From: Candidatus Hodarchaeota archaeon
GTDB taxonomy: Archaea > Asgardarchaeota > Heimdallarchaeia > Hodarchaeales > Hodarchaeaceae
DNA length: 64,000 nucleotides
Reading direction: 5' to 3'
Assembly (NCBI GenBank): GCA_016839815.1
Contig: JAEOTM010000032.1
Coordinates: 1-64,000, forward strand
The translations under genes and the position numbers were made by a program. Numbering within the stretch: the stretch's first letter is position 1; each line of letters starts with the position of its first letter. Of the stretch, positions 13,605-48,642 are shown one piece after another. The notes under the pieces were generated by a model that made no database searches, was not told where the DNA came from, and worked only from the letters and a program-made list of their open reading frames with translations.

Positions 13605-14147
13605 ATGGTGATGTATAGCTGTAAGGTCATATTATTAGGACAGGGAGGTGTAGGTAAGACCTCGGTTATCCGTCGCTTTGTAGAGCAAGCTTTCAGCCAT
13701 GATTACAAAACAACAGTTGGCAGTAACTTCCTACTTAAACGTCTTCAACTTGATGCCGAAACACGCATGACAATGCAGATCTGGGATTTAAGCGGTCAGG
13801 ACTCGTTTAGGAATATCCGAACGCAGTATTTCTTGCACTCCCACGGGGGAATCATGGTCTATGATTTGACGCGTCCTGAAACCCTGCATAAGCTTGACAA
13901 ATGGTATGCCGATTTTACTGAAAAAGCGGGTGGAGTTCCCTTAATGCTTTTTGGGAATAAAGTTGATTTAGCGGAGGAAAGAGTGGTCGACTCCGATGCT
14001 GGTGCGAAACAGGCAGAAAAATTTCATGCTACCTATTATGAAACCTCTGCTTTGGATGGTACTAATGTTCAAGAAGCTTTTACTCAACTGGCCAAACAAA
14101 TAATTGCCCACATTGACGCCAGACGAAGTAAAATTTCAAATAAATAA
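13605..14147 (+). CDS. Ras/Rab-like small GTPase
   Basis: GQGGVGKTS (G1), TTVGSNF (G2), WDLSGQ (G3), NKVDLA (G4), ETSALD (G5); no C-terminal Cys prenylation motif. Confidence 0.93.
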   Translation: MVMYSCKVILLGQGGVGKTSVIRRFVEQAFSHDYKTTVGSNFLLKRLQLDAETRMTMQIWDLSGQDSFRNIRTQYFLHSHGGIMVYDLTRPETLHKLDKWYADFTEKAGGVPLMLFGNKVDLAEERVVDSDAGAKQAEKFHATYYETSALDGTNVQEAFTQLAKQIIAHIDARRSKISNK

Positions 14148-14351
14148 GATATATCTCTTTTTCTATGTTAAAACCATACATTTCATTGTTTATCTGACGG
14201 TATTCGAATTTTAATCTTTTGTTTTCTAAATTTATAGAGAAATTGCATAAAGAGCAGAATTTCTTCTGAAATCTACTTTTTTGAAAAATAATCTATTTAT
14301 AGGAGTATTCTGAATAATCAAGTAAGAAAAAATCGAAAGAGCCGAGAAATC

Positions 14352-14549
14352 ATGAGTAAAAAGGATGATCCTCTTTTAATATTCACTACGAAAGTTAGTC
14401 GATGTGCTAACGGCTACCATTTAAAAATTCGTAAAAAAGATGTGGAATTATTAAATTTGGCTGGTCAAATGGTTAAGATTAAGGTTTATACAGTTGGTCA
14501 AGAAGAAGAGGATGAAACTAAAGATCCTTATGAAAAGCTAGTTGATTAA
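14352..14549 (+). CDS. Small protein, possible AbrB/SpoVT-like swapped-hairpin fold
   Basis: 65 aa 'FTTKVSRCANGYHLKIRKKDVELLNLAGQMVKIKVYTV' resembles AbrB-like strand-helix-strand pattern; lies just upstream of the KaiC-like gene. Confidence 0.5.
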   Translation: MSKKDDPLLIFTTKVSRCANGYHLKIRKKDVELLNLAGQMVKIKVYTVGQEEEDETKDPYEKLVD

Positions 14550-14599
14550 CGAAGGCTTTTAACTACATTAGTCTAAAGACTGCACACTGAGGTATTCCA

Positions 14600-15358
14600 A
14601 TGTCAGAAGGTTCTCTAAGTATCAAACCCACTGGGATTACTGAATTTGACAAAATTCTTGGTGGGGGTATTCCTGCGGGATGGTTCATTGCATTACGAGG
14701 TGGCGCAGGAGTAGGAAAAACAACATTAGCCATTCAGTTTTTACTGGAGGGTATTCTCAAATACAACGATCCAGGACTTTTAGTTACTTTTAATGAACCA
14801 TTACCTGCCTTGAATGCGATTATGCGGAATTATGGTTGGGATTTACAAGGATTACAGGATATGGGAGAATTATCAGTCTTAGATTTTAGCTCAACAGAAA
14901 TGGGGATTATGCAACAAGCTAGTCGCTTGCGTGAAGCTTCTCTTGACTATGTTACTCAAAAGATTATTGATGAAGTACGAAGATTGGGAGTTAATCGTCT
15001 AGTAATTGATCCTTTGAACACTTTTTCCCTTCTATTCCGAGATTTGTTTGAAGTGAGGAAAGAACTTCACAGGGTAATCGGTATTTTATGGCAGGAGAAG
15101 TGTACTACACTAGCTGTTTACGAAAATACTGATGATGCAGTTACAGATATACAGAGTCCCCAGTTTTCGACTGAAGACTTTCTTTCGTATGGAGTTATAA
15201 ATCTGCAATATATGCTCGTCAATTCTTCACGTGAACGAGCAATTGAGATCCTCAAGATGAGGGGGATGAATCATTCCAAGCGTGTTCACCCTTATGAGAT
15301 AACAGGCAAAGGAATAGCCATTAAAGCTGATAAACCCATGGAATTTGGAAAAAAGTAA
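14600..15358 (+). CDS. KaiC-like RecA-superfamily ATPase (single domain)
   Basis: 'TGITEFDKILGGGIPAGWFIALRGGAGVGKTTLAIQFLLEG' Walker A, 'RLVIDPLNTF' Walker B region. Confidence 0.88.
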   Translation: MSEGSLSIKPTGITEFDKILGGGIPAGWFIALRGGAGVGKTTLAIQFLLEGILKYNDPGLLVTFNEPLPALNAIMRNYGWDLQGLQDMGELSVLDFSSTEMGIMQQASRLREASLDYVTQKIIDEVRRLGVNRLVIDPLNTFSLLFRDLFEVRKELHRVIGILWQEKCTTLAVYENTDDAVTDIQSPQFSTEDFLSYGVINLQYMLVNSSRERAIEILKMRGMNHSKRVHPYEITGKGIAIKADKPMEFGKK

Positions 15359-15449
15359 TCCAGCTACAAGTAATCCACCACTTCCGAAATTAAAAAATAA
15401 GCTACTTTTCCTTATTAATTTCATATTTATTCTCCAATTATGAAGTGAA

Positions 15450-16238
15450 ATGAAAAAACATCTGCATAATCTCTCTTGGCGTATAATTCCCTACTCTCGA
15501 AATAACGCATATGTCAATATGGGAGTAGACGAAGCAATTTATCAATTATTCAAGGATCATAAGGTCAATACCTTGCGTTTATACAGTTGGGAGCCAAGTA
15601 CTGTGTCGATAGGTCACCATCAATACCTACATGACGAGATAGATCTCTCTATGCTTGAAAAATATAAACTTCAGGTTGTTAGACGTATTTCTGGAGGAGG
15701 GGCTGTTTTTCATGATTCAAGGGGAGAATTAACATACTCCGTTGTAACAACTACGAATCAAGTAGCAAGTACATCTGTTGAAGCGAGTTATTACGAAATT
15801 GTAAATCTTTTATTCTCTCCACTTACTAAGATTGGCATATCCATTGACTTTAATCAAATCCATTGTCCAAGTGTTTTTAGCCAAGGTAAAAAAATTTCAG
15901 GTAACGCACAGGCGCGGTCAGGAGATTTAATTCTACAACATGGAACGATTCTGATAGATTACAACCCTGAACTAATGTATTCTGTTCTTAAAGCCCGTCC
16001 AGGAAGAACAAAGACACAAATGGTACAATCTGTATATCAAAAAGTCACTACAATACATGAACAGTTAGAAAAACCTGAGTTTACTCCTCGGACTCTTGCG
16101 GAATTTATTACGAAAGAGCTTCTAGAGAATCATGCTTCTACTTTTTCCTTAGGCCAATTATCCGCTGAGGAAAAACGTCTTTCTAAACAATTAGTAGAAG
16201 AAAGATATAAATCTAAGCAATGGTTATTTCTCAAGTAG
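15450..16238 (+). CDS. lplA: Lipoate-protein ligase A family protein
   Basis: 'RRISGGGAVFHDSRGELTYSVV' lipoate ligase motif; 'GKKISGNAQARSGDLILQHGTILID'. Confidence 0.88.
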   Translation: MKKHLHNLSWRIIPYSRNNAYVNMGVDEAIYQLFKDHKVNTLRLYSWEPSTVSIGHHQYLHDEIDLSMLEKYKLQVVRRISGGGAVFHDSRGELTYSVVTTTNQVASTSVEASYYEIVNLLFSPLTKIGISIDFNQIHCPSVFSQGKKISGNAQARSGDLILQHGTILIDYNPELMYSVLKARPGRTKTQMVQSVYQKVTTIHEQLEKPEFTPRTLAEFITKELLENHASTFSLGQLSAEEKRLSKQLVEERYKSKQWLFLK

Positions 16239-17211
16239 ATATCACTACGTTCTCCTTAAACTCTTGTTGAAGATAATTCACAAGAAAATTTTCGGGAAAC
16301 AGGTATTTACCATTTATTTGGTATTTAGTCAACTGATGGGGAAATGTTTCCTCAAGATGTGTCACTACTGACTCAGCCACCATTCTAGCCAGAGAAAGGT
16401 CAGATTTCTTATCTGTAATTATTGCACATAGAAGTTTTTCCCGTTTAACCATCACTATAGAATAGTTTTCTGTGATCAGTGAATCTAAACCTCCAGTAGA
16501 CCCCATCATTCCACTTGCAAATTCATTAATGGCGTTTAAAAACCCAGGTACGATATCATTGTCCATAGCTGATTCAGGTTGATTCATAAATAAATGAGAG
16601 ACTATTGGTACTCCTGTACGAAGAAAAAGATAGATTCCTTCAACTTTGATATATTTTTTTGCTATTGAGAGTGCTATTTTTTGAGAAAACCAATTTAAAG
16701 CCCGATCAATATTCATTCCTGTCTTAACAGAAATTTCAAATATCTGGAAGGATCGAGTTGGGCTTTGATGGGGTAATCTCCGTAATTTGACTTTATCAAT
16801 CAACTTAGGTAATTCAATATGTGTCAAATCAGCTTTATTTGCTAGAATCATGAGTGGTGCCTCTGGATTCCATTTTAAGCATTTCCACAGCCATTCCACT
16901 GCAGTATCCAATTTTTCAAGATCATTCGCATCGATCATAAACACGATTCCTTGTGATAGTTTAACGTACTCTTTCCAAAACATTTCTCGGAATCGTTCGT
17001 GTCCCCCCAAATCAAATAGCTGGAAAAGATTGCCTTGAATTTCCAAGATTTCTGTATCTAGTCCTGATGTCGGTACTGTTTTTCCAAATTCTCCGGTTTG
17101 GAGGCGTAATACAAATGAAGTCTTCCCTGCAAACTCTAGCCCGACAATAACTATTGGTATACGTTTTCTTGGAAATCCTTGCATGAATGCCTCAACTCTG
17201 ACATTGCGCAA
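16231..17211 (-). CDS. Arf-like small GTPase with C-terminal longin-like domain
   Basis: GLEFAGKTS (G1), PTSGLDTE (G2), FDLGGHERFREMFWKEY (Arf-type G3), NKADL (G4); C-terminal 'VEGIYLFLRTGVPIVSHLFMNQ...GFLNAINEFASGMMG...YSIVMVKREKLLCAIITDKK' resembles longin regions of the 42093 and 47872 CDSs. Confidence 0.8.
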   Translation of the reverse strand: MRNVRVEAFMQGFPRKRIPIVIVGLEFAGKTSFVLRLQTGEFGKTVPTSGLDTEILEIQGNLFQLFDLGGHERFREMFWKEYVKLSQGIVFMIDANDLEKLDTAVEWLWKCLKWNPEAPLMILANKADLTHIELPKLIDKVKLRRLPHQSPTRSFQIFEISVKTGMNIDRALNWFSQKIALSIAKKYIKVEGIYLFLRTGVPIVSHLFMNQPESAMDNDIVPGFLNAINEFASGMMGSTGGLDSLITENYSIVMVKREKLLCAIITDKKSDLSLARMVAESVVTHLEETFPHQLTKYQINGKYLFPENFLVNYLQQEFKENVVIST

Positions 17212-17365
17212 TTGTTTTCTCCCTATATAGGAGCGTCCTCAGTACGACTCACCACCAATTGTATATAATCATATGTAAATACGCGTTTCGTACGGACTGA
17301 GTTCCCTCTTTTTCTATGCAGAATGTAAAATACCTTCATTTTGACTTGCTGGGAGGCAATCTTAT

Positions 17366-18739
17366 TTACCTAGAAAGAAATTTATTTGCATAATCTCGTG
17401 CAAAAGTAATTAGCTCGGATTGGTGATCGATTCTTTCCTTCGGATCATACACTTCAATTTGCAAAGTATTGTCATCGGTCGCTAAATGAATATGTATCCA
17501 TTCATTCTCCTCTGTAATTAGTTTAATGCCAATAAAGGTGTCAATCACATGATAATCCTTCGGTGGGTTGTTCAAAACAGCTTTAAAAAATTCAAACATT
17601 TTTTCTAATGGAAAAGTTACTTCAGCTGTGCGTTGAGCAAAAACTTGATGATTTCGATAGAGATCTGTTGATTTTAGATTGGTTTTAGCCATTTGTGAGA
17701 GTACGGTGAATGATGCCACAATTGCATCTGAACCTGGTGAAAAGACTGGTAACACAAAAAGGCCAGTATCATTGAATCCATAGATCGCTCTATGTTTCAA
17801 AACAGCCCTACCTATTCCACCGGGTTCTCCATGACCAGAGAAAATTATATTTTTATGTAGATCCTGATAAACGGAAGGATGAACAGAGCTACCCATTACT
17901 ACATTTGCATTCGATTTTGGATCATACCGTGAATGAAGATTAACTGACGCAGTTTCCTCTGCGGTTCGGATTCGTCCTTGACTATCAATAATTATTGCAT
18001 GACGAGCTTCTGCATCTAAAGCTACTCCTAAATCTGCGCCTATGGCACGAACCATATCTCTTAATCGTACTAATGAACTAGGATTGGGTAAAAAGAGTGG
18101 ATTACGAGGTCTATGAGCATTAAGAGTTATAACTTGACATCCAAACTCACTGAGTAGATCAGGCATGATTCTAGAGGCGGGTCCACAAGCACAATCTACA
18201 ACCACCCTTAAATTGGCATTTTTCATAGATTCTTTGCTGGAAGCGAAAAAACCAGCCAATGCACGGTCATATACCTTCATTGCATCAGCAACACTAATCC
18301 AGCCCACATCAGGAGCTGCAGCTCTTCGAAGCTTACCTGATTTTGCAATCTCTACAATTTTCGCTACTTGACTATTTTGATATTCGATTCCAGTTGCTTC
18401 AAAAAATTTTATGGATACCATTCCAGCTAGGTTATGACTTCTTGTTAACATAACACCCGCATCTGCTCCATAACGTCTCACCGCGAACTGCAAGATACTG
18501 GTTGGAATCCCATGCAAATCTATCAACTCAATTCCAGCTGAAAGCAGTCCTCCAGAAAAAGAACGTTTTAACATTCGTGTGTCACGACGATAATCTCGTC
18601 CAATCATTACTACTGCATTAGAATCTAATGATGTACCCATTGCACTTCCTAAAAGAGCCGATAATTCTGGAGTTAGCTCGGTATTTGAAAATCCTGTAAC
18701 GCGTCCACCTTTAGCAAGTAAATCAATTTTATTCAACAT
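17366..18739 (-). CDS. Phosphohexomutase-superfamily protein with degenerate metal-binding loop
   Basis: 'GRDYRRDTRML', 'VMLTRSHNLAGMVSIKFFE' (active-Ser region), but 'GADLGVALDAEARHAIII' replaces DGDGDR. Confidence 0.8.
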   Translation of the reverse strand: MLNKIDLLAKGGRVTGFSNTELTPELSALLGSAMGTSLDSNAVVMIGRDYRRDTRMLKRSFSGGLLSAGIELIDLHGIPTSILQFAVRRYGADAGVMLTRSHNLAGMVSIKFFEATGIEYQNSQVAKIVEIAKSGKLRRAAAPDVGWISVADAMKVYDRALAGFFASSKESMKNANLRVVVDCACGPASRIMPDLLSEFGCQVITLNAHRPRNPLFLPNPSSLVRLRDMVRAIGADLGVALDAEARHAIIIDSQGRIRTAEETASVNLHSRYDPKSNANVVMGSSVHPSVYQDLHKNIIFSGHGEPGGIGRAVLKHRAIYGFNDTGLFVLPVFSPGSDAIVASFTVLSQMAKTNLKSTDLYRNHQVFAQRTAEVTFPLEKMFEFFKAVLNNPPKDYHVIDTFIGIKLITEENEWIHIHLATDDNTLQIEVYDPKERIDHQSELITFARDYANKFLSR

Positions 18740-18773
18740 CAGTTTGTCATCCTCTCAAAAGTGCATTTTTATT

Positions 18774-19928
18774 CTAATTCTTTGTAATCGTTTGATTCTT
18801 CTCAGTTTTTAATCCTGTAATACCTTTAAACTTCGGGCCTACTACTGTCCCTTCATTCAGAAGGGAATTTGTTGGAATAAACACTTCATCACATATAATT
18901 GTATTTTTCATCTTTACATTGTCCTCAATTATTGTGTCATTCCAAATTACAGAGCTTTCAATTTCGCAATTACTCCCAATGTTAACACGATCTCCAATAA
19001 CTGTACGACCCCAAATTCGTGTATTATTACCAATTGTGATTTCATGACCTAATGCTGCAGGTGGTTCTATTGAACTCCCACTTGGAAGAGAAGGAGAACT
19101 CTGATTAATCCAAACATTATTTTCTTCTGATGTCGCACGTGGTAAGTAGGGGAACGCCCATCTTCTTAATACATCCCAATTCGTATAGAGATAGGTTTGG
19201 GGATTACCAGCATCCATCCAGTAATACTGAAGATTATCCGCCCAACCATAGATTCCATACTCCCGGGCTAAATAGGGGAAGACATCCTTTCCAAAATCCA
19301 TCAGATCGTCCATTGATTCAAGAATATCCAATACTTGATGTTTAAAAGCGTAAATCCCAGTGTTAACTAGATTCGATTGTAAGCGAATTGTTTCTTTTTT
19401 TGAGAATGTAAGAGTCGCTAAACCGAGCTCCTGTGGGATTGGCTTTTCCAAAAAAAGTAAGATACGAGAATCCTGATTCAACATGATTACACCGAATGCT
19501 CTAGGTAGAGCGACATCTTTCAGTGTAATACTTGCGATTCCCCCTTTCTCGTTATGAAAAGCCATAAAATCTTGTAGAGGAATATTCGTGACAATATCTG
19601 CCATCGAAACGATAAAGTTATCGGTAGAAATATAATTTGCAGCCTTTCTTACTGCATCAGCAGTATCTAGTGGATCAAAAACAGGTAGAACGATATCTAA
19701 ATCATCGAAATGATCGTTTTCTTTAAAATATTGGATTATTTCCTCTCTCATATAACGAGTTATGATTGCTATTTTGCCTGTAATCCTTGCGTTTCGTAAG
19801 AGCTCCAAATTATAATCAATCATAGGCTTGTTTGCCACAGGAACCAAAGGTTTGGGAATATTATTAGTCAATGGTCTTAATCTTGATCCTATTCCCCCTG
19901 CTAAAACAATAGCACTCCATTCTGTCAT
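18774..19928 (-). CDS. Sugar-1-phosphate nucleotidyltransferase with C-terminal left-handed beta-helix
   Basis: 'IVLAGGIGSRLRPLTNNIPKPLVPVANKPMIDYNLELL'; hexapeptide-like repeats at the C-terminus. Confidence 0.92.
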   Translation of the reverse strand: MTEWSAIVLAGGIGSRLRPLTNNIPKPLVPVANKPMIDYNLELLRNARITGKIAIITRYMREEIIQYFKENDHFDDLDIVLPVFDPLDTADAVRKAANYISTDNFIVSMADIVTNIPLQDFMAFHNEKGGIASITLKDVALPRAFGVIMLNQDSRILLFLEKPIPQELGLATLTFSKKETIRLQSNLVNTGIYAFKHQVLDILESMDDLMDFGKDVFPYLAREYGIYGWADNLQYYWMDAGNPQTYLYTNWDVLRRWAFPYLPRATSEENNVWINQSSPSLPSGSSIEPPAALGHEITIGNNTRIWGRTVIGDRVNIGSNCEIESSVIWNDTIIEDNVKMKNTIICDEVFIPTNSLLNEGTVVGPKFKGITGLKTEKNQTITKN

Positions 19929-20070
19929 CCGTGATGAGCTCCAAGTAGACCGAGTTAAAATCTGAGAATGTGTCTGTTACTCCTTAATTGAGATCCTTTA
20001 TGTTTCCATAAATTCTCAAAGGTTAAAAATTCTATGCTGCTAGGTAGGAAAAATCCTTAGTAACAACCAT

Positions 20071-20292
20071 TCAAAAATGTCTTTTGAAATAAATTCGCCA
20101 ATGACGTTGGCAGAAGCGCTCCTCACATGTTGAGCATTCAATATCCCGTTTGTCCTCTGCATGTTTCTTCTTATAACATGTGTAGGAGTTACAAATAGCG
20201 GGTTTTTTACAGTATCGGCACTCTTGTGAATCAATCTTAGAGCTTGACTTGTCTAGTATGGGTTTAGTTTTCTCTGTAATCAATATAATCAT
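20071..20292 (-). CDS. Small Cys/His-rich putative zinc-binding protein
   Basis: 'ECRYCKKPAICNSYTCYKKKHAEDKRDIECSTCEERFCQRHWRIYFKRHF': regular Cys/His spacing. Confidence 0.5.
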   Translation of the reverse strand: MIILITEKTKPILDKSSSKIDSQECRYCKKPAICNSYTCYKKKHAEDKRDIECSTCEERFCQRHWRIYFKRHF

Positions 20293-20543
20293 CCATATTA
20301 AGAATGTATAGAAGTAAGGGATGATGATTCACGGAAGTACTTCATGCTTCCCCCAGAGATTCAATCGTCCTTTTTCCTCTTACGTGAAGTACTTAAATTT
20401 CATCTTTTTAAGAGTTTTCCAAGATTTTGGGAAATAAGGGATTATTTTGTCTGGGGATTTGATACCCTATGATTTAAAAATATCAAAAACTCTAAAACAT
20501 TGAGCTTTGAGATTATCCTTACTCAAAATTTAAGACTCAATCT

Positions 20544-21242
20544 TTGTGGTTATACATGCAAGATGAGAAAGATATTATTATCCATGATTTACGTGAAGAA
20601 ATAGAACGTATGAAAGACCAATCCCAAACAAAGCTCAGTGAGGCATTCGGCGATTCTACCAACCTTGAAAAGCAATTACAGGAGAGTCGTGATGTTCTCA
20701 GTAATGTTCAAAGCGATTTTCAAGCAGAAAAAGCAAAATCTGAAACGTTAGCTACTGAAAAAGCAGAATTGGACAAACAGATAGAAGAATTGAATGAAAT
20801 CATTAAACAACATGAATCAACCACAGCATCCTATCTACAACAAATAGCCAAGATGCAACAATTGCTTCAAGAAACTGAACAAGAAATTGTGGATATTGAA
20901 GCAGGTCATTTAGCTATCCAAAATCAACTTCAAGAGGAAATTAAACGAACAGAGGATCGCTTTGGCCAGGTAAGTGAGGATCTAACAAGAGGAGCGTCCA
21001 GTAATCATGCACAAGACATTCTTATTCGAACTGTCCTCCAAGAAACCGAGCTAGGCAAAATAACTATGTTCATAGTAGACTACTTCGAGAATCCCAAGAG
21101 AAAAGTGTTAGCTAGAGAAACAATTTCTACAGAGCTTCAGCTTCCTCCAATTATGATACGAAAACATTTACGTTTACTGCATGGTTTGGGAGTATTATAT
21201 TTTAATGAAGTTTCGGGAGAAATAAAACCAGTCATCCAATAG
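20544..21242 (+). CDS. Coiled-coil protein with C-terminal winged-helix-like domain
   Basis: Long heptad-like Glu/Lys/Gln-rich stretch, then 'TISTELQLPPIMIRKHLRLLHGLGVLYFNEVSGEI'. Confidence 0.6.
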   Translation: MWLYMQDEKDIIIHDLREEIERMKDQSQTKLSEAFGDSTNLEKQLQESRDVLSNVQSDFQAEKAKSETLATEKAELDKQIEELNEIIKQHESTTASYLQQIAKMQQLLQETEQEIVDIEAGHLAIQNQLQEEIKRTEDRFGQVSEDLTRGASSNHAQDILIRTVLQETELGKITMFIVDYFENPKRKVLARETISTELQLPPIMIRKHLRLLHGLGVLYFNEVSGEIKPVIQ

Positions 21243-21308
21243 ACCTTGTTTTATTCCCTGAGAAGTAATCTTTTTTCTTATAAAAAAGGACAATTAATAA
21301 TTGGATTC

Positions 21309-21656
21309 CTACTTATTTTTGGAGGAGTCAAGCCGAATGGAATAAACTCCGTTATTTCCTGCAATAACGGGTGATTTTTCTTTCTTAGATTTACGCTTTA
21401 ACAAATTATCCACATTAATATCGTAAATTCCAATTTGTCTTTCTCTAATCGTAAGAAACTCCATGTCCTCTTTTGAATATATCGTTTTATCCGCAGTGAC
21501 TGATACATTCTTATTTGTTTGAGGCTGCATTCGTAAACGAAAGAGACGATGACCACAGGTGCAACCAGTGAAGAGTTCATTTGCTTTTTCTGGTGTACGA
21601 TCACATTTTGCACACCGATAACGAGATAAATTGACCTCTCCACTTGTTAATGCCAT
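21309..21656 (-). CDS. Zn-ribbon protein of the conserved archaeal DUF2072-type group
   Basis: 'YRCAKCDRTPEKANELFTGCTCGHRLFRLR'; gene order with DUF2073-like and Era-like GTPase. Confidence 0.65.
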   Translation of the reverse strand: MALTSGEVNLSRYRCAKCDRTPEKANELFTGCTCGHRLFRLRMQPQTNKNVSVTADKTIYSKEDMEFLTIRERQIGIYDINVDNLLKRKSKKEKSPVIAGNNGVYSIRLDSSKNK

Positions 21657-21671
21657 ATATCCACCAGGAAA

Positions 21672-21989
21672 TTAAACTAGGGCGATTGATAGATGTTCAT
21701 AATTATGGGGAGCTATTACTGTCATTTTCACATTTTTTCGACTGAATAGTCCATTCATTCGCAAAGGTGCGGGATTAAGGATTTTATACCCCAAGAAATC
21801 TTGGTGATCAATTTGGATCATTGCTTCTTCTATTAATGCAGCTTCCTCTTCAGCATCTAGTCCACCTTCAAAGACTACAACACATTCGGATTTTAGTTTC
21901 GAGATAATGAAGTCACATTTCTGGGTGGAGTTCATTTTTCGTGTAGTATTTTCAGTCACGAAATTGATATGTAAGTCCACTTTTTGCAC
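21672..21989 (-). CDS. DUF2073-like conserved archaeal protein
   Basis: 'GGLDAEEEAALIEEAMIQIDHQDFLGYKI' and position between the Zn-ribbon and Era-like GTPase genes. Confidence 0.6.
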   Translation of the reverse strand: MQKVDLHINFVTENTTRKMNSTQKCDFIISKLKSECVVVFEGGLDAEEEAALIEEAMIQIDHQDFLGYKILNPAPLRMNGLFSRKNVKMTVIAPHNYEHLSIALV

Positions 21990-21992
21990 CTC

Positions 21993-22607
21993 TCACATTC
22001 CTGATACCGATAAGATACTTCCATACAATTCATTCATTCCTGACCCATCTTTTGCCGAGATTGGGATTATTTCGCTTTGGAACGTCTCTTTAACGAGTTC
22101 TGGATCAGCATCAGTCAAATCTGTCTTGTTAGCTGCTACGATTATCGGTATTTTTCTTGCTTCAAGATTCCCTATTACAGTCCAGTTTATTTGGTCAAAT
22201 GGTGCACGCGCGGCGTCAACCACTACTATTGCTGCATCCATTTTGTCTAAGCTTTGAATCGCTTTAATGACTCCTCGAGTTGCTTCTTTTGCTCGTTGAA
22301 TGCTATCCTGTCTGGTTAATCCGTGTTGTTGAAATTCTCGATAATCAATTGATGTTGCAATCCCCGGAGTATCCACAATGGTTAAATCTAAAGAACCACT
22401 TTGGTCAGTGATAACACAATGTTCGAGGGCACTACATTCACGAGTTTCATGAGGAACAGGGCTTACTACTCCAAGAGGTTCGCCATTCCCGCATTCATTT
22501 GAAATTCGGTTTGCTAAGGTAGTTTTTCCTGCATTGGGAGCTCCCAAAATTCCTATAGTAATTTGATTTTTCCGACTACGTGCAAACAATCGCGATAAGA
22601 TACTCAT
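21993..22607 (-). CDS. Era/Obg-like GTP-binding protein
   Basis: 'GILGAPNAGKTTLANRI' (G1), 'DTPGIATSIDYREFQQHG' (G3), 'ANKTDLTD' (G4), 'PISAKDGSG' (G5). Confidence 0.88.
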   Translation of the reverse strand: MSILSRLFARSRKNQITIGILGAPNAGKTTLANRISNECGNGEPLGVVSPVPHETRECSALEHCVITDQSGSLDLTIVDTPGIATSIDYREFQQHGLTRQDSIQRAKEATRGVIKAIQSLDKMDAAIVVVDAARAPFDQINWTVIGNLEARKIPIIVAANKTDLTDADPELVKETFQSEIIPISAKDGSGMNELYGSILSVSGM

Positions 22608-41407: not shown

Positions 41408-42103
41408 TTACTCCATTTTCCATACACTTTCCCCATGCCAATCCCGGATCCTCTTGATAGGACTACCAGCATAAATTGAATTTGGTTCTAAAACCCTATT
41501 TGCTGGAATCACTGAATTACTGGCAACAATAACGTTATCCTTAATTGTAACACCTGGTAAAATGATTGTTCCAGCACCAATTGTGCAGTTTTTTCCAATG
41601 ACAATTCGTTTGCGGAAAAGTTCTCCTTGAGATATAGCATGTGCCCCAATAATACAACCAGTTCCGATAGAAGTATTTTCTCCAATTTCCATTAATTCAA
41701 CATCCCAGATTCGAGTATAAATGGCTGCTCCCTTACCAATTTTAGCCCCAAATAATTTATAGAAAAGTGAGGGGAACATCTGGTTAATAAACAGTTTATT
41801 GACAAAATAATAAGCAGTATCTGCAGCTGTCATACCGACTCCCCATAACAGTTGATCTCGACCCGTCAAGATTCCTTCTTCTTTCTTCATAAACAATCTC
41901 GCTAGCTTATGAATGATTGCTAAGATGAACAATCCTGTGAATAATGTTAGAGTAATTGCACAGATGATTGACAAATACAGATTATTTACGAATAATCCAT
42001 TGTAAAAGAGATCAAAATACCATACACCGATGAAAATTACTGATGCTAGTAACACAATCTGAAAGAAAACCCAGGTAACCATATTCATACCCTTAGATTT
42101 CAA
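41408..42103 (-). CDS. Membrane-anchored hexapeptide-repeat (left-handed beta-helix) acyltransferase-like protein
   Basis: Two TM helices, then 'IGENTSIGTGCIIGAHAIS...IVIGKNCTIGAGTIILPGVTIKDNVIVASNSVIP'. Confidence 0.82.
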   Translation of the reverse strand: MKSKGMNMVTWVFFQIVLLASVIFIGVWYFDLFYNGLFVNNLYLSIICAITLTLFTGLFILAIIHKLARLFMKKEEGILTGRDQLLWGVGMTAADTAYYFVNKLFINQMFPSLFYKLFGAKIGKGAAIYTRIWDVELMEIGENTSIGTGCIIGAHAISQGELFRKRIVIGKNCTIGAGTIILPGVTIKDNVIVASNSVIPANRVLEPNSIYAGSPIKRIRDWHGESVWKME

Positions 42104-43751
42104 TGTTTGTTGAAGGAGATAGATGACCGAAGACCTCTTCTGCGATATCTACAGCTCCATCGAACACACTGCGTGCTCCATTCCAAGTCGCTAGGTGTTT
42201 ACCGTACTGAGCACAGAATTGAATTTGGAATTCATGCAATGCCTTTTTTAATTCCATATCATGTTTATTACAGAAAATGACGGTAGAAATTCCTGTATCT
42301 TTATCTTTATCAGTAATAATGAAGTGATTACCATGTCTGACCAGATTCAAGTTACCTTTTTCCCTCATCATTTCAGACATAAAGGAAGAAACAGCAGTAA
42401 GTGCTCCTGAAAGTAGTGTGAGCTCAATATCGGTATCTAGTTTTTGTTGAAATGCATAATCAAATAGTGGTAAGCCACCCTCTTCAATCACCATGAGTAA
42501 CGTGAAGTCTAATGGTTCATAACTATCAGTTGTCCAAAATAGAGGAAATGCAGCGAAAACCGCTAAGATAATCAAAATGTATGTCACGTAATCTAAATTC
42601 TCGAGGAGTGGAACTAAGAACCAATGGCCAACACCATACCCTGCACCAAGTCCTAAAGCTAGCGATATAAATCCTAGTGCAAAATATCGTCCTAAACCAT
42701 CACGAGGAGAAAGATCAGCCCACAAAGAAGAATCTAATGTAGGATGGATTAGTGCAAAAGAAAATCCGATCGTTAATGCTGAAATGAAGAAACTTGCTTC
42801 AGATTTTTCGAGACCTAGTATCATTGCGGAAAAAACAATGCCATATATCGCTAATACGATTAAATTCTTCCGACCAATTTTATCAGCTAGAAATCCAGCT
42901 GGTATAACTAACAGCAAATCACCAACTAATACCAAAACCCAAAAAAGTTGATCTACACTAAATTGCAGTTCCCCAAGGGCGGGAAATTTAAAGGTTTCTG
43001 TTATATCCAACACTGATCCTATTAAAGGGAATATAGCTATAGAGATTCCAAGCATACAGTACAATAAGAAATGAGTACTCAAATATGCTTGGACAGACCG
43101 ACGACCAACAATTTTCGTAAATTTGGTTGGCCATGCATCAGGTACCCAGTATTTCAAATCACGGGAGAGTAAAAAGAATACTAAAGTCAAGATGAGTCCC
43201 AATACCCCAATTCCTGGAATGATTACAACCCAGCTATTACTTAATGGATCAGTTTCAGCAAAATCAGAGGAAATCTCATTTCCAATTATAATACTCACAA
43301 GTACTAAGATAATAAATAGAAAAATTGCAGTAGAATATGTTTTTCCGCGTGAAGCTGAATTAGTTAATCCTGCAAATAGTGTCCCACTGCTTGTAAGGAG
43401 AATAGCAAAGGAAAATGCTAATCCGACCAGTGAAACAGAAAATAAGATAGCTGAATTAATAAAAACAATGAATAACGTTGAGGTTATTGATGCACCTAAC
43501 ATACCAATCATAATCCCCTTCTTCAGAAATTCAGGATGTGAATCAAGATAATGTCCTGTGAAATAAAGGACTAGAATCACGAGAAGAAGAAGAACGCCTA
43601 ATATTACTATTCCCAAACCCATAAAAGGATTATCATCAGATTGTTCGACATAATCTAATATTTCGAAAGAATAAATCAATAATAGAGTAGCTGCTAAGCA
43701 CCATGTGAATGTACTGGGTATTATAATGAGGAAAAATCGTTTTACATCCAT
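42093..43751 (-). CDS. MFS-like membrane protein with C-terminal longin-like domain
   Basis: ~12 TM with 'GFLADKIGRKNLIVL'; C-term 'FTLLMVIEEGGLPLFDYAFQQKLDTDIELTLLSGALTAVSSFMSEMM...NLNLVRHGNHFIITDKDKDTGISTVIFCNKHDMELKKALHEFQIQF'. Likely start Met 43751 (track 43838). Confidence 0.75.
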   Translation of the reverse strand: MDVKRFFLIIIPSTFTWCLAATLLLIYSFEILDYVEQSDDNPFMGLGIVILGVLLLLVILVLYFTGHYLDSHPEFLKKGIMIGMLGASITSTLFIVFINSAILFSVSLVGLAFSFAILLTSSGTLFAGLTNSASRGKTYSTAIFLFIILVLVSIIIGNEISSDFAETDPLSNSWVVIIPGIGVLGLILTLVFFLLSRDLKYWVPDAWPTKFTKIVGRRSVQAYLSTHFLLYCMLGISIAIFPLIGSVLDITETFKFPALGELQFSVDQLFWVLVLVGDLLLVIPAGFLADKIGRKNLIVLAIYGIVFSAMILGLEKSEASFFISALTIGFSFALIHPTLDSSLWADLSPRDGLGRYFALGFISLALGLGAGYGVGHWFLVPLLENLDYVTYILIILAVFAAFPLFWTTDSYEPLDFTLLMVIEEGGLPLFDYAFQQKLDTDIELTLLSGALTAVSSFMSEMMREKGNLNLVRHGNHFIITDKDKDTGISTVIFCNKHDMELKKALHEFQIQFCAQYGKHLATWNGARSVFDGAVDIAEEVFGHLSPSTNIEI

Positions 43752-43970
43752 TTTAACATATCCTGTAGAATTATACTTAGTTAGGGTGTGGATCTCAAGC
43801 TTTGGTAAGGATTTCAAAGCTCTAGCAATAATTATCAAAATAGGGTAAAGAGATTAAATCCTTTATTCAGCTTTCTCACATTATACTAACACCTTAAATA
43901 AACCTCATCGAAGCATATTAGGACAAGAATCTTTTTGGAAAAAGGATTTTTACTCAAGATAATTACAGGG

Positions 43971-47306: not shown

Positions 47307-47867
47307 ATGACAAGCAAAGAAATCAAGCATGTATTAAAAATACTGCTCCTTGGGGATGGAGCCGTCGGAAAAACTTCATTAATTCTAAGATTCATTGAAA
47401 ATAAGTTTAAAGATGAATATTCTGTAAGTTTGGGAGTGGATTTTCTCACCAAAACCATTAATTTCATTGATGAAGATGATATTAAGCGAGTGGTATCCTT
47501 ACAAGTGTGGGATATAGCAGGTCAAGCGAGACATGTGTCTTACTCACACCTCTACCTCAAAGGTGCATTAGGAGCGTTTTATGTATTTGATTTAACCAGA
47601 AAAGACACTTTGGCGCAGATTCAGAATCGCTGGCAACTCCAAGCTCTCAAGGCATCACCTAATCACATTGGTATTCTTATTGGAAATAAAGCGGATTTAA
47701 CTAAAGAGAGAGCGGTTCCTGAATCGCAATTGAAGCAGATTATTGATAGTATGCATGTTCTTGAATTTATAGAAACGTCTGCAAAGACAGGTAGAAATGT
47801 TAACAAGGCTTTTCAAAAATTAACCACAGAAATCCTGCGTGTGAAACCAAAAAAATTCCTGAAGTGA
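47307..47867 (+). CDS. Rab/Ras-like small GTPase
   Basis: GDGAVGKTS (G1), SVSLGVDF (G2), WDIAGQARH (G3), NKADL (G4), ETSAKTG (G5). Confidence 0.93.
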   Translation: MTSKEIKHVLKILLLGDGAVGKTSLILRFIENKFKDEYSVSLGVDFLTKTINFIDEDDIKRVVSLQVWDIAGQARHVSYSHLYLKGALGAFYVFDLTRKDTLAQIQNRWQLQALKASPNHIGILIGNKADLTKERAVPESQLKQIIDSMHVLEFIETSAKTGRNVNKAFQKLTTEILRVKPKKFLK

Positions 47868-47871
47868 GCTC

Positions 47872-48642
47872 ATGTCCCCTTTAACCGAATTTAAAGCCGT
47901 GAAAGCATTTTTCATCTTTGAAAAAGATCAAGGCACTACATTATTCACCCGATCCTATGAACGGAGTTCAACTGCACCCGATGCTCATCTTGTTGTCGCA
48001 TTCTTAACAGCTATGTTTTCTTTTGCAAAAACAACATCACTTAGTGACTTAAGAGTTGTGGATATGACCGATATTCGATTCTCATTTATTGAAAAAAATA
48101 GATTAATCTTCGCAGTTCTAGTCTCCCCTCTTGTTTCACCTCTAGATATTCAGTTCAAGCTATCCACTATAGCGAGCTTGTTTTTCTCGGATTATGGAAA
48201 TGAGCTAGATTCAATTGATATTGTTGACACAGAAATGTTTGATGATTTCAATGACTCAGTTGATGAGATTTTTGGTGGAGAGACACGCCAAATGCTTAAA
48301 TCATCGAAAAATGCAGCTCTATTCTACTTGAAGAAATTAGTATCCAAAGAAGAGACAGGAGCTCGAGGTGCGATGATTTTATCTTTTACAGGTGATATTC
48401 TCCTTGAATATAAAATGGATCAGCCCCGAATGGCTGCTGCTATTCGTATTTTGAACGTAGGAACCTATATGACCAATCTTCGATACTTAGTTGTTGCTTC
48501 TGAGTCAACTCACCTTGTTGCATATAAAATCAGTGAGGGATTACTACTTGCAGTTGATGGCCACCCATCATACGGTCTTGAGGATCTAGTAGTGAATGTT
48601 TCCGAAACGGTGAAGCAAATAAAGGAAATTATTCCCCATTAA
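47872..48642 (+). CDS. Longin-like + roadblock/LC7-like two-domain protein
   Basis: N-half 'VKAFFIFEKDQGTTLFTRSYER...FLTAMFSFAKTT...IRFSFIEKNRLIFAVLVS'; C-half 'GARGAMILSFTGDILLEYKMDQ...NLRYLVVASESTHLVAYKISEGLLLAVDG..PSYGLEDLVVNVSETVKQI'; 4 nt after the GTPase stop. Confidence 0.78.
   Translation: MSPLTEFKAVKAFFIFEKDQGTTLFTRSYERSSTAPDAHLVVAFLTAMFSFAKTTSLSDLRVVDMTDIRFSFIEKNRLIFAVLVSPLVSPLDIQFKLSTIASLFFSDYGNELDSIDIVDTEMFDDFNDSVDEIFGGETRQMLKSSKNAALFYLKKLVSKEETGARGAMILSFTGDILLEYKMDQPRMAAAIRILNVGTYMTNLRYLVVASESTHLVAYKISEGLLLAVDGHPSYGLEDLVVNVSETVKQIKEIIPH

Follow-up and report, generated by a model that had tools for sequence, protein, structure and literature searches.

An Arf-type GTPase and a longin-fold domain joined in a single chain in a Hodarchaeales archaeon

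The window analysed here is the whole 64,000-nucleotide stretch at the start of contig JAEOTM010000032.1 of a Candidatus Hodarchaeota archaeon (NCBI accession no. GCA_016839815.1; order Hodarchaeales). A gene on its minus strand encodes an Arf-type G domain followed by a longin-fold domain, and related longin domains are encoded at two further places in the window (Table 1). The longest open reading frame (ORF) of the gene extends over positions 16231-17211 on the minus strand, and the opposite (plus) strand is full of stop codons there. A first-pass annotation of the DNA had given these coordinates and quoted peptides exactly and had left the strand unstated, while the N-terminus that it printed (MRNVRVEAFMQGFPRKR) is probably nine residues too long. 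That the ORF is a real gene, and not a chance frame, is confirmed at the level of sequence by its match to the Pfam Arf model (E 6.4e-32), by full-length orthologues and by low non-synonymous divergence (dN).

The true start is likely the ATG at 17184 rather than the TTG at 17211, because three orthologues (L041, L043, and L044) start at the equivalent codon, with a GTG exactly where the window has its ATG and with no in-frame start codon upstream of that GTG. This comparison disfavours the TTG, although a purine-rich stretch ahead of the TTG leaves room for its use in the window. Read from the ATG, the 317-aa protein begins MQGFPRKRIPIVIVG. An inverted pair, GGACAC...GTGTCC, was observed in L041-L044 between a conserved TACTGAGGAC and the start (17185-17245 in the window, where the pair is imperfect), and is a possible operator or leader hairpin.

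Table 1. Features of the Arf-longin gene and related longin domains in the window.
Feature	Position	Strand	Basis or remark
CDS, 317 aa	16231..17184	minus	Preferred ATG at 17184; start matched in orthologues
27 nt TTG-to-ATG segment	17185..17211	minus	Probably 5′ leader, non-coding
Arf-type G domain, residues 1-174	16663..17184	minus	Pfam Arf 6.4e-32, AF2 model, VIA-align
G1/P-loop GLEFAGKT, residues 15-22	17119..17142	minus	Gly20 and Lys21 invariant in 25 aligned G-longin proteins
G3 DLGGH, residues 58-62; His62 at the Arf Gln71 position	16999..17013	minus	Direct reading
Longin-fold domain, residues 179-317	16234..16650	minus	AF2 models, PDB fold matches, leave-out profile E 4.7e-25
Related longin domain, C-terminus of MFS-type transporter 42093-43838	42132..42506	minus	Leave-out profile 1.6e-16; hhalign 88.8% vs group alignment
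Related longin domain in 256-aa protein 47872-48642	47899..48273	plus	Leave-out profile 9.3e-13; own-genome profile 2.4e-10

The gene and a convergent lipoate ligase gene (15450-16238) share 8 bp, an overlap that is retained in close orthologues. Six orthologous loci share the gene order of 13605-22607, which comprises a Rab-like GTPase, a KaiC-like ATPase, the lipoate ligase, the Arf-longin gene, a phosphohexomutase, a nucleotidyltransferase (sugar), a coiled-coil protein, a small zinc-ribbon-like protein and an Era-like GTPase. No operon partner was found among the neighbours conserved in the six genomes, whose functions are mixed. Altogether, eight more full-length orthologues, 52-85% identical to the window protein, occur in seven other genomes (one of which has two copies), and the kinship table places all orthologue-bearing genomes in the same genus; two of the orthologues (L047 and L048) are located outside the conserved neighbourhood. 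Compared with close orthologues, the G domain has a dN of 0.06-0.07 and the longin domain one of 0.12-0.13, at a dS of 1.1-1.8 that is near saturation, and purifying selection is indicated for both domains.

The Arf-type character of the intact G domain (residues ~8-174), already recognised in the first-pass annotation, is borne out by the Pfam Arf model, at 110.9 bits against a cut-off of 22.3, by matches to solved Asgard ArfR structures, and by the position of the protein in a G-domain tree. The nucleotide motifs G1 (GLEFAGKT), the switch-I Thr (PTSG), G3 (DLGGHE), G4 (NKAD), and a G5-like SVKTG are all present, and in an alignment of 25 proteins Gly20, Lys21, Thr39 of switch I, and the NK-D residues of G4 never vary. 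A PDB profile search with the G domain returned 8oul and 8oun (‘Arf GTPase’/‘GTP-binding protein’ entries) as its top matches, and VIA-align gave Z scores of 26.5 for GerdArfR1 (8oum), 25.9 for HodArfR1 (8ouk), and ~25 for Arf1/Arl1. The solved Asgard ArfRs (8ouk, 8oul, 8oum, and 8oun) are the closest solved G domains, at ~29-33% identity and Z 26, but their chains are single-domain and only 178-192 residues long.

The tree has 41 rows, with reference rows for SAR1a and RagA that are identical to PDB chains and with human Arf1 and Rab1 as further reference rows. The window protein and its orthologues, hereafter group A, are supported at 100/99 and fall on the Arf side of the tree, separated from Rag by a split of 92/94 and from Rab by one of 90/90, with long branches flagged. 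Branching order within the Arf side is poorly supported. Two other groups of GTPase-longin proteins, B and C, join at 92/87, whereas A and the Aegir-type group D do not join them, so that a single origin for all four groups is neither supported nor refuted by this tree. Orthology with Sar1, prompted by the DLGGHE motif, is not supported: Sar1a, on a long branch, groups with D (93/94) and not with A, and the His of the motif varies among orthologues.

This His is a feature that the first-pass annotation passed over. The Arf-type motif that it reported is present, but with His in place of the catalytic Gln, as in Sar1. At the position of Arf Gln71, seven of the nine group A members, including the window protein, have His, and L042 and L047 have Gln; the tree makes L042 sister to the window protein (100/92), which implies more than one change at this position. 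Sar1 is an active GTPase and a member of the Arf family. Human SAR1a (8dzm) carries the identical DLGGHE motif, and by analogy we infer that His62 may be catalytic and that the protein may hydrolyse GTP, although the Gln of two orthologues lends no support to a special role for the His. It is very improbable, in our estimation, that the G domain is degenerate or non-hydrolysing and that the protein serves mainly as a longin scaffold. Such a role would suit the exchange of the catalytic Gln for His in most group members, and has a parallel in a related family of GTPase-longin proteins (L029, L033, L034, and L037) in which G3 reads DLGKE in place of DxGGQ, suggesting that those G domains are degenerate. 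In group A, however, the remaining nucleotide motifs are intact and conserved, the altered motif is that of an active GTPase, two members have the Gln, and the G domain has the lower dN of the two domains.

Modelled alone with AlphaFold2 (AF2), the C-terminal domain reached a mean pLDDT of 82.6 and a pTM of 0.79. DSSP applied to both AF2 models returned the order b1-b2-a1-b3-b4-b5-a2-a3, which is the longin order (b1 179-188, b2 193-198, a1 211-224, b3 234-237, b4 241-247, b5 251-258, a2 263-280 with 282-291, and a3 300-309). When VIA-align was run against the chains top-ranked by Foldseek, the domain matched Sec22b at Z 13.3 (123 residues, 2.8 A) and TRAPPC4 at Z 13.2 (128 residues, 2.6 A), followed by VAMP7 (12.8), Mon1 (12.4), and Fuzzy (12.3); solved longins align over 115-131 residues at Z 11-13. 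The longin domain that the first-pass annotation had placed in the same chain is thereby supported, and structure prediction, the check that it had proposed, yields neither an unrelated fold nor disorder in this region. The longins of Sec22b, TRAPPC1/TRAPPC4, VAMP7, Ykt6, and Mon1/Fuzzy share the fold and its strand and helix order, but they are joined to SNARE motifs or found in GEF/adaptor complexes and not joined to a GTPase, and their identity to the window domain is mostly 9-18%. The window domain itself matched no curated Pfam longin model above the cut-off; within the family alignment A3, 5 of 20 rows matched Fuz_longin_1 (best E 2.9e-6), and Sybindin was matched at 4.2e-4.

A sub-threshold Pfam match of the window protein to MAPKK1_Int (LAMTOR3; 0.008) raised the possibility of a roadblock domain. 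We set this assignment aside, as Ragulator roadblocks reach Z 11.3 and below over only ~100-105 residues, whereas longins align over a greater length and at higher Z, a preference that is not absolute between folds that are kin. The same match would suit a Rag/Gtr-type GTPase, with a roadblock module, an obligate Rag-like dimer and a part in nutrient-type signalling. Rag and Gtr GTPases, familiar from eukaryotes and including the Asgard LokiRagO (8yl2), have the identical domain order, a G domain and then a C-terminal roadblock-superfamily module in one chain, and in Rag GTPases this module mediates heterodimerisation (PMC8254048). Foldseek aligns LokiRagO, SpGtr (8fw5), and RagA (6s6a) with the window protein over ~305-313 columns, and Arf-annotated fusions of this kind in Asgard archaea have been classed as Rag-like (Tran et al., 2024; PMC10933270). 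Over both domains, these Rag-type chains align at an rmsd of 14-15 A. Their G domain, however, belongs to another family: the Pfam Gtr1_RagA model matches the window G domain at E 4.4e-4 (20.2 bits, under the cut-off of 22), against 6.4e-32 for Arf, and in the tree group A belongs to the Arf side, apart from two Rag-like proteins of the same genome (L088 and L089) that match Gtr1_RagA best and group with RagA. Their C-terminal module is a roadblock and not a longin, and the longin order found here includes the C-terminal a3, which is absent from roadblocks, with longins also scoring better. We therefore regard a Rag/Gtr-type protein as improbable.

On composition and folds we are nearly certain that an Arf-type switch is joined to a longin domain. 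The domains and the kinship proposed in the first-pass annotation hold, but the fusion is not new: the Arf-like/longin architecture has been on record in Asgard archaea since 2016. According to Box 1 of PMC4917890, 5 of 41 longin domains in Lokiarchaeum are joined to Arf-like small GTPases (Klinger et al., 2016), and in MK-D1, 26 of 74 small GTPases also carry a roadblock or longin domain (Tran et al., 2024; PMC10933270). These fusions have the same architecture, an Arf-annotated G domain plus a longin domain in an Asgard archaeon; the group described here, from Hodarchaeales, has no N-terminal amphipathic helix and mostly has His at the catalytic Gln position, traits in which it may differ from them. 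The loss of the helix and the His/Gln variation may be previously undescribed, the 2025 ArfR literature aside.

In group A, 4-7 residues precede b1 in the members measured, and by alignment the remaining members have no more. The corresponding count is 15-24 in the other GTPase-longin groups, 11 in ArfR 8oun (a basic extension), 16 in Arf1, and 24 in Sar1a. A basic amphipathic start is kept in groups B (L003 type, MSLLKRLFRR), C (L002 type, MSSILRRIFKGK), and D (Aegir type, MPFGRLISNLLGLFRR). By alignment and by the residues counted before b1, no N-terminal amphipathic helix is present in group A, which, judging from these aligned N-termini, has lost a helix that its sister groups retain. With only 4-7 residues before b1, we claim an Arf-type G domain and not an Arf-type membrane switch. 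Neither candidate N-terminus, MQGFPRKR from the ATG or MRNVRVEAF from the TTG, has a Gly2 myristoylation signal, and the earlier statement to this effect applies to both.

How the two domains sit against each other is less constrained than their individual folds. The full-length AF2 model has a pTM of 0.64 and Rag-type matches have an rmsd of 14-15 A, neither of which fixes how one domain is placed against the other. The C-terminal end of an Arf-fold G domain lies away from the switches. In the model, a linker of only ~4 residues separates the last G-domain helix (159-174) from b1 (179), which could favour control in cis, with the longin domain packing on the switch regions of its own G domain and governing the nucleotide state; the same short linker would, however, keep the longin near that C-terminal end, from which the switches of its own chain may be hard to reach. 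A longin domain is known to bind an Arf-kin GTPase in trans in the signal recognition particle receptor, where the SRX longin of SR-alpha holds SR-beta (PMC4686813), and under control in cis the window protein would resemble SR-beta/SRX in one chain. In that receptor the two lie on separate chains, and SR-alpha has its own SRP-type GTPase. In Rag GTPases, too, the C-terminal module contacts switch I when GDP is bound (PMC8254048). The G domain does match Pfam SRPRB (E 6.4e-13), but the Arf match is far better, and we consider control in cis unlikely, although it is the chief competitor of the explanation favoured below.

The resemblance of the longin domain to the MFS-fused domain, described in the first-pass annotation as the ‘same pattern’, turned out to be real homology. 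The three longin segments of the window are linked by a family profile of 15 sequences, with both group A and the MFS protein left out; its rows were gathered using the window domain as query and are thus no blind sample. Among 210 real and reversed ORFs, this leave-out profile matched the window ORFs 16231-17211, 42093-43838, and 47872-48642 (E-values in Table 1) and no others, the next best match being at 0.39. A profile of group A only did not match the 47872 protein, whose link is seen solely with the wider family profile. In hhalign comparisons with the family profile, the C-terminal domains of groups B and C reached a moderate 84% and 75%, respectively, against 11% for B, 5% for C, and 10% for D when group A alone was used. 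A second protein with the MFS-longin layout (L078, contig C101) was observed in the same genome.

Longin domains of this family are numerous. The genome itself has 36 matches at E<=0.01, and by ORF reading these lie in MFS, multi-helix membrane, TPR, HerA-like, ParA-like, and GTPase proteins. A phylum-wide sample of 59 genomes had matches at E<=1e-5 in 57, with up to 46 in each. For the full-length architecture, a profile built with rows of groups A, B, and C, its matches scored by sequence alone, had matches at E<=1e-45 in 47 of 58 genomes of the class, most of them spanning ~260 or more of the 317 positions in frames of 300-350 aa. Two families (f4 and f7) had no matches to this profile, and more distant ones may occur there; in another family, one of the matching proteins is a 315-aa frame (G022:C136) with a C-terminal part that the longin profile matches at 1.3e-16.

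From the architecture we infer, as the first-pass annotation did, that the protein could act as a ‘self-contained switch-plus-platform’. The explanation that we somewhat favour overall is an ArfR-type switch in which the longin domain is a docking or dimerisation surface that sets the address of the protein instead of the lost helix. The G domain would bind GTP and hydrolyse it slowly, His62 (or Gln) positioning the attacking water as in Sar1, while the longin domain would provide the switch with a fixed docking or dimerisation surface. The address would come from the pairing of this longin with a partner and not from an Arf-type N-terminal helix, and the state of the switch would decide which effector is engaged at that site. 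Taken separately, the part played by the longin domain as a dimerisation or docking surface, proposed by analogy with SR-beta/SRX and the Rag C-terminal module, is evenly balanced in our judgement, and we hold more tentatively, at rather less than even, that it replaces the helix in setting location. The alpha-1 Gly/Ala residues and other conserved positions may reflect core packing rather than an interface.

There is a slim chance that the longin proteins, which number dozens per genome (MFS transporter, multi-helix membrane, TPR, HerA-like, and GTPase fusions), pair through their longins, which would place the helix-less GTPase on particular membrane proteins. If such longin-longin pairing is true, an Arf-type switch would be addressed in a combinatorial way. 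Chains that contain both a G domain and a longin are natural material on the early cooperation of switch/adaptor pairs, which for comparison include TRAPP and Mon1-Ccz1 with Rabs. As the helix is lost in group A and kept in its sister groups, comparison with the same-genome paralogues L002 and L003 could separate the role of the helix from that of the longin.

Elsewhere in the window, at 47307-48642 on the plus strand, a gene for a Rab-like GTPase is followed after a 4 bp gap by the gene for the 47872-48642 longin protein, which bears a distant resemblance to the first FUZ/MON1 longin (Pfam Fuz_longin_1 at E 0.005, below the cut-off) and possibly has a second such longin domain. Operons of GTPase and longin genes are reported to be uncommon in MK-D1, and the two genes are a candidate GTPase/longin pair.
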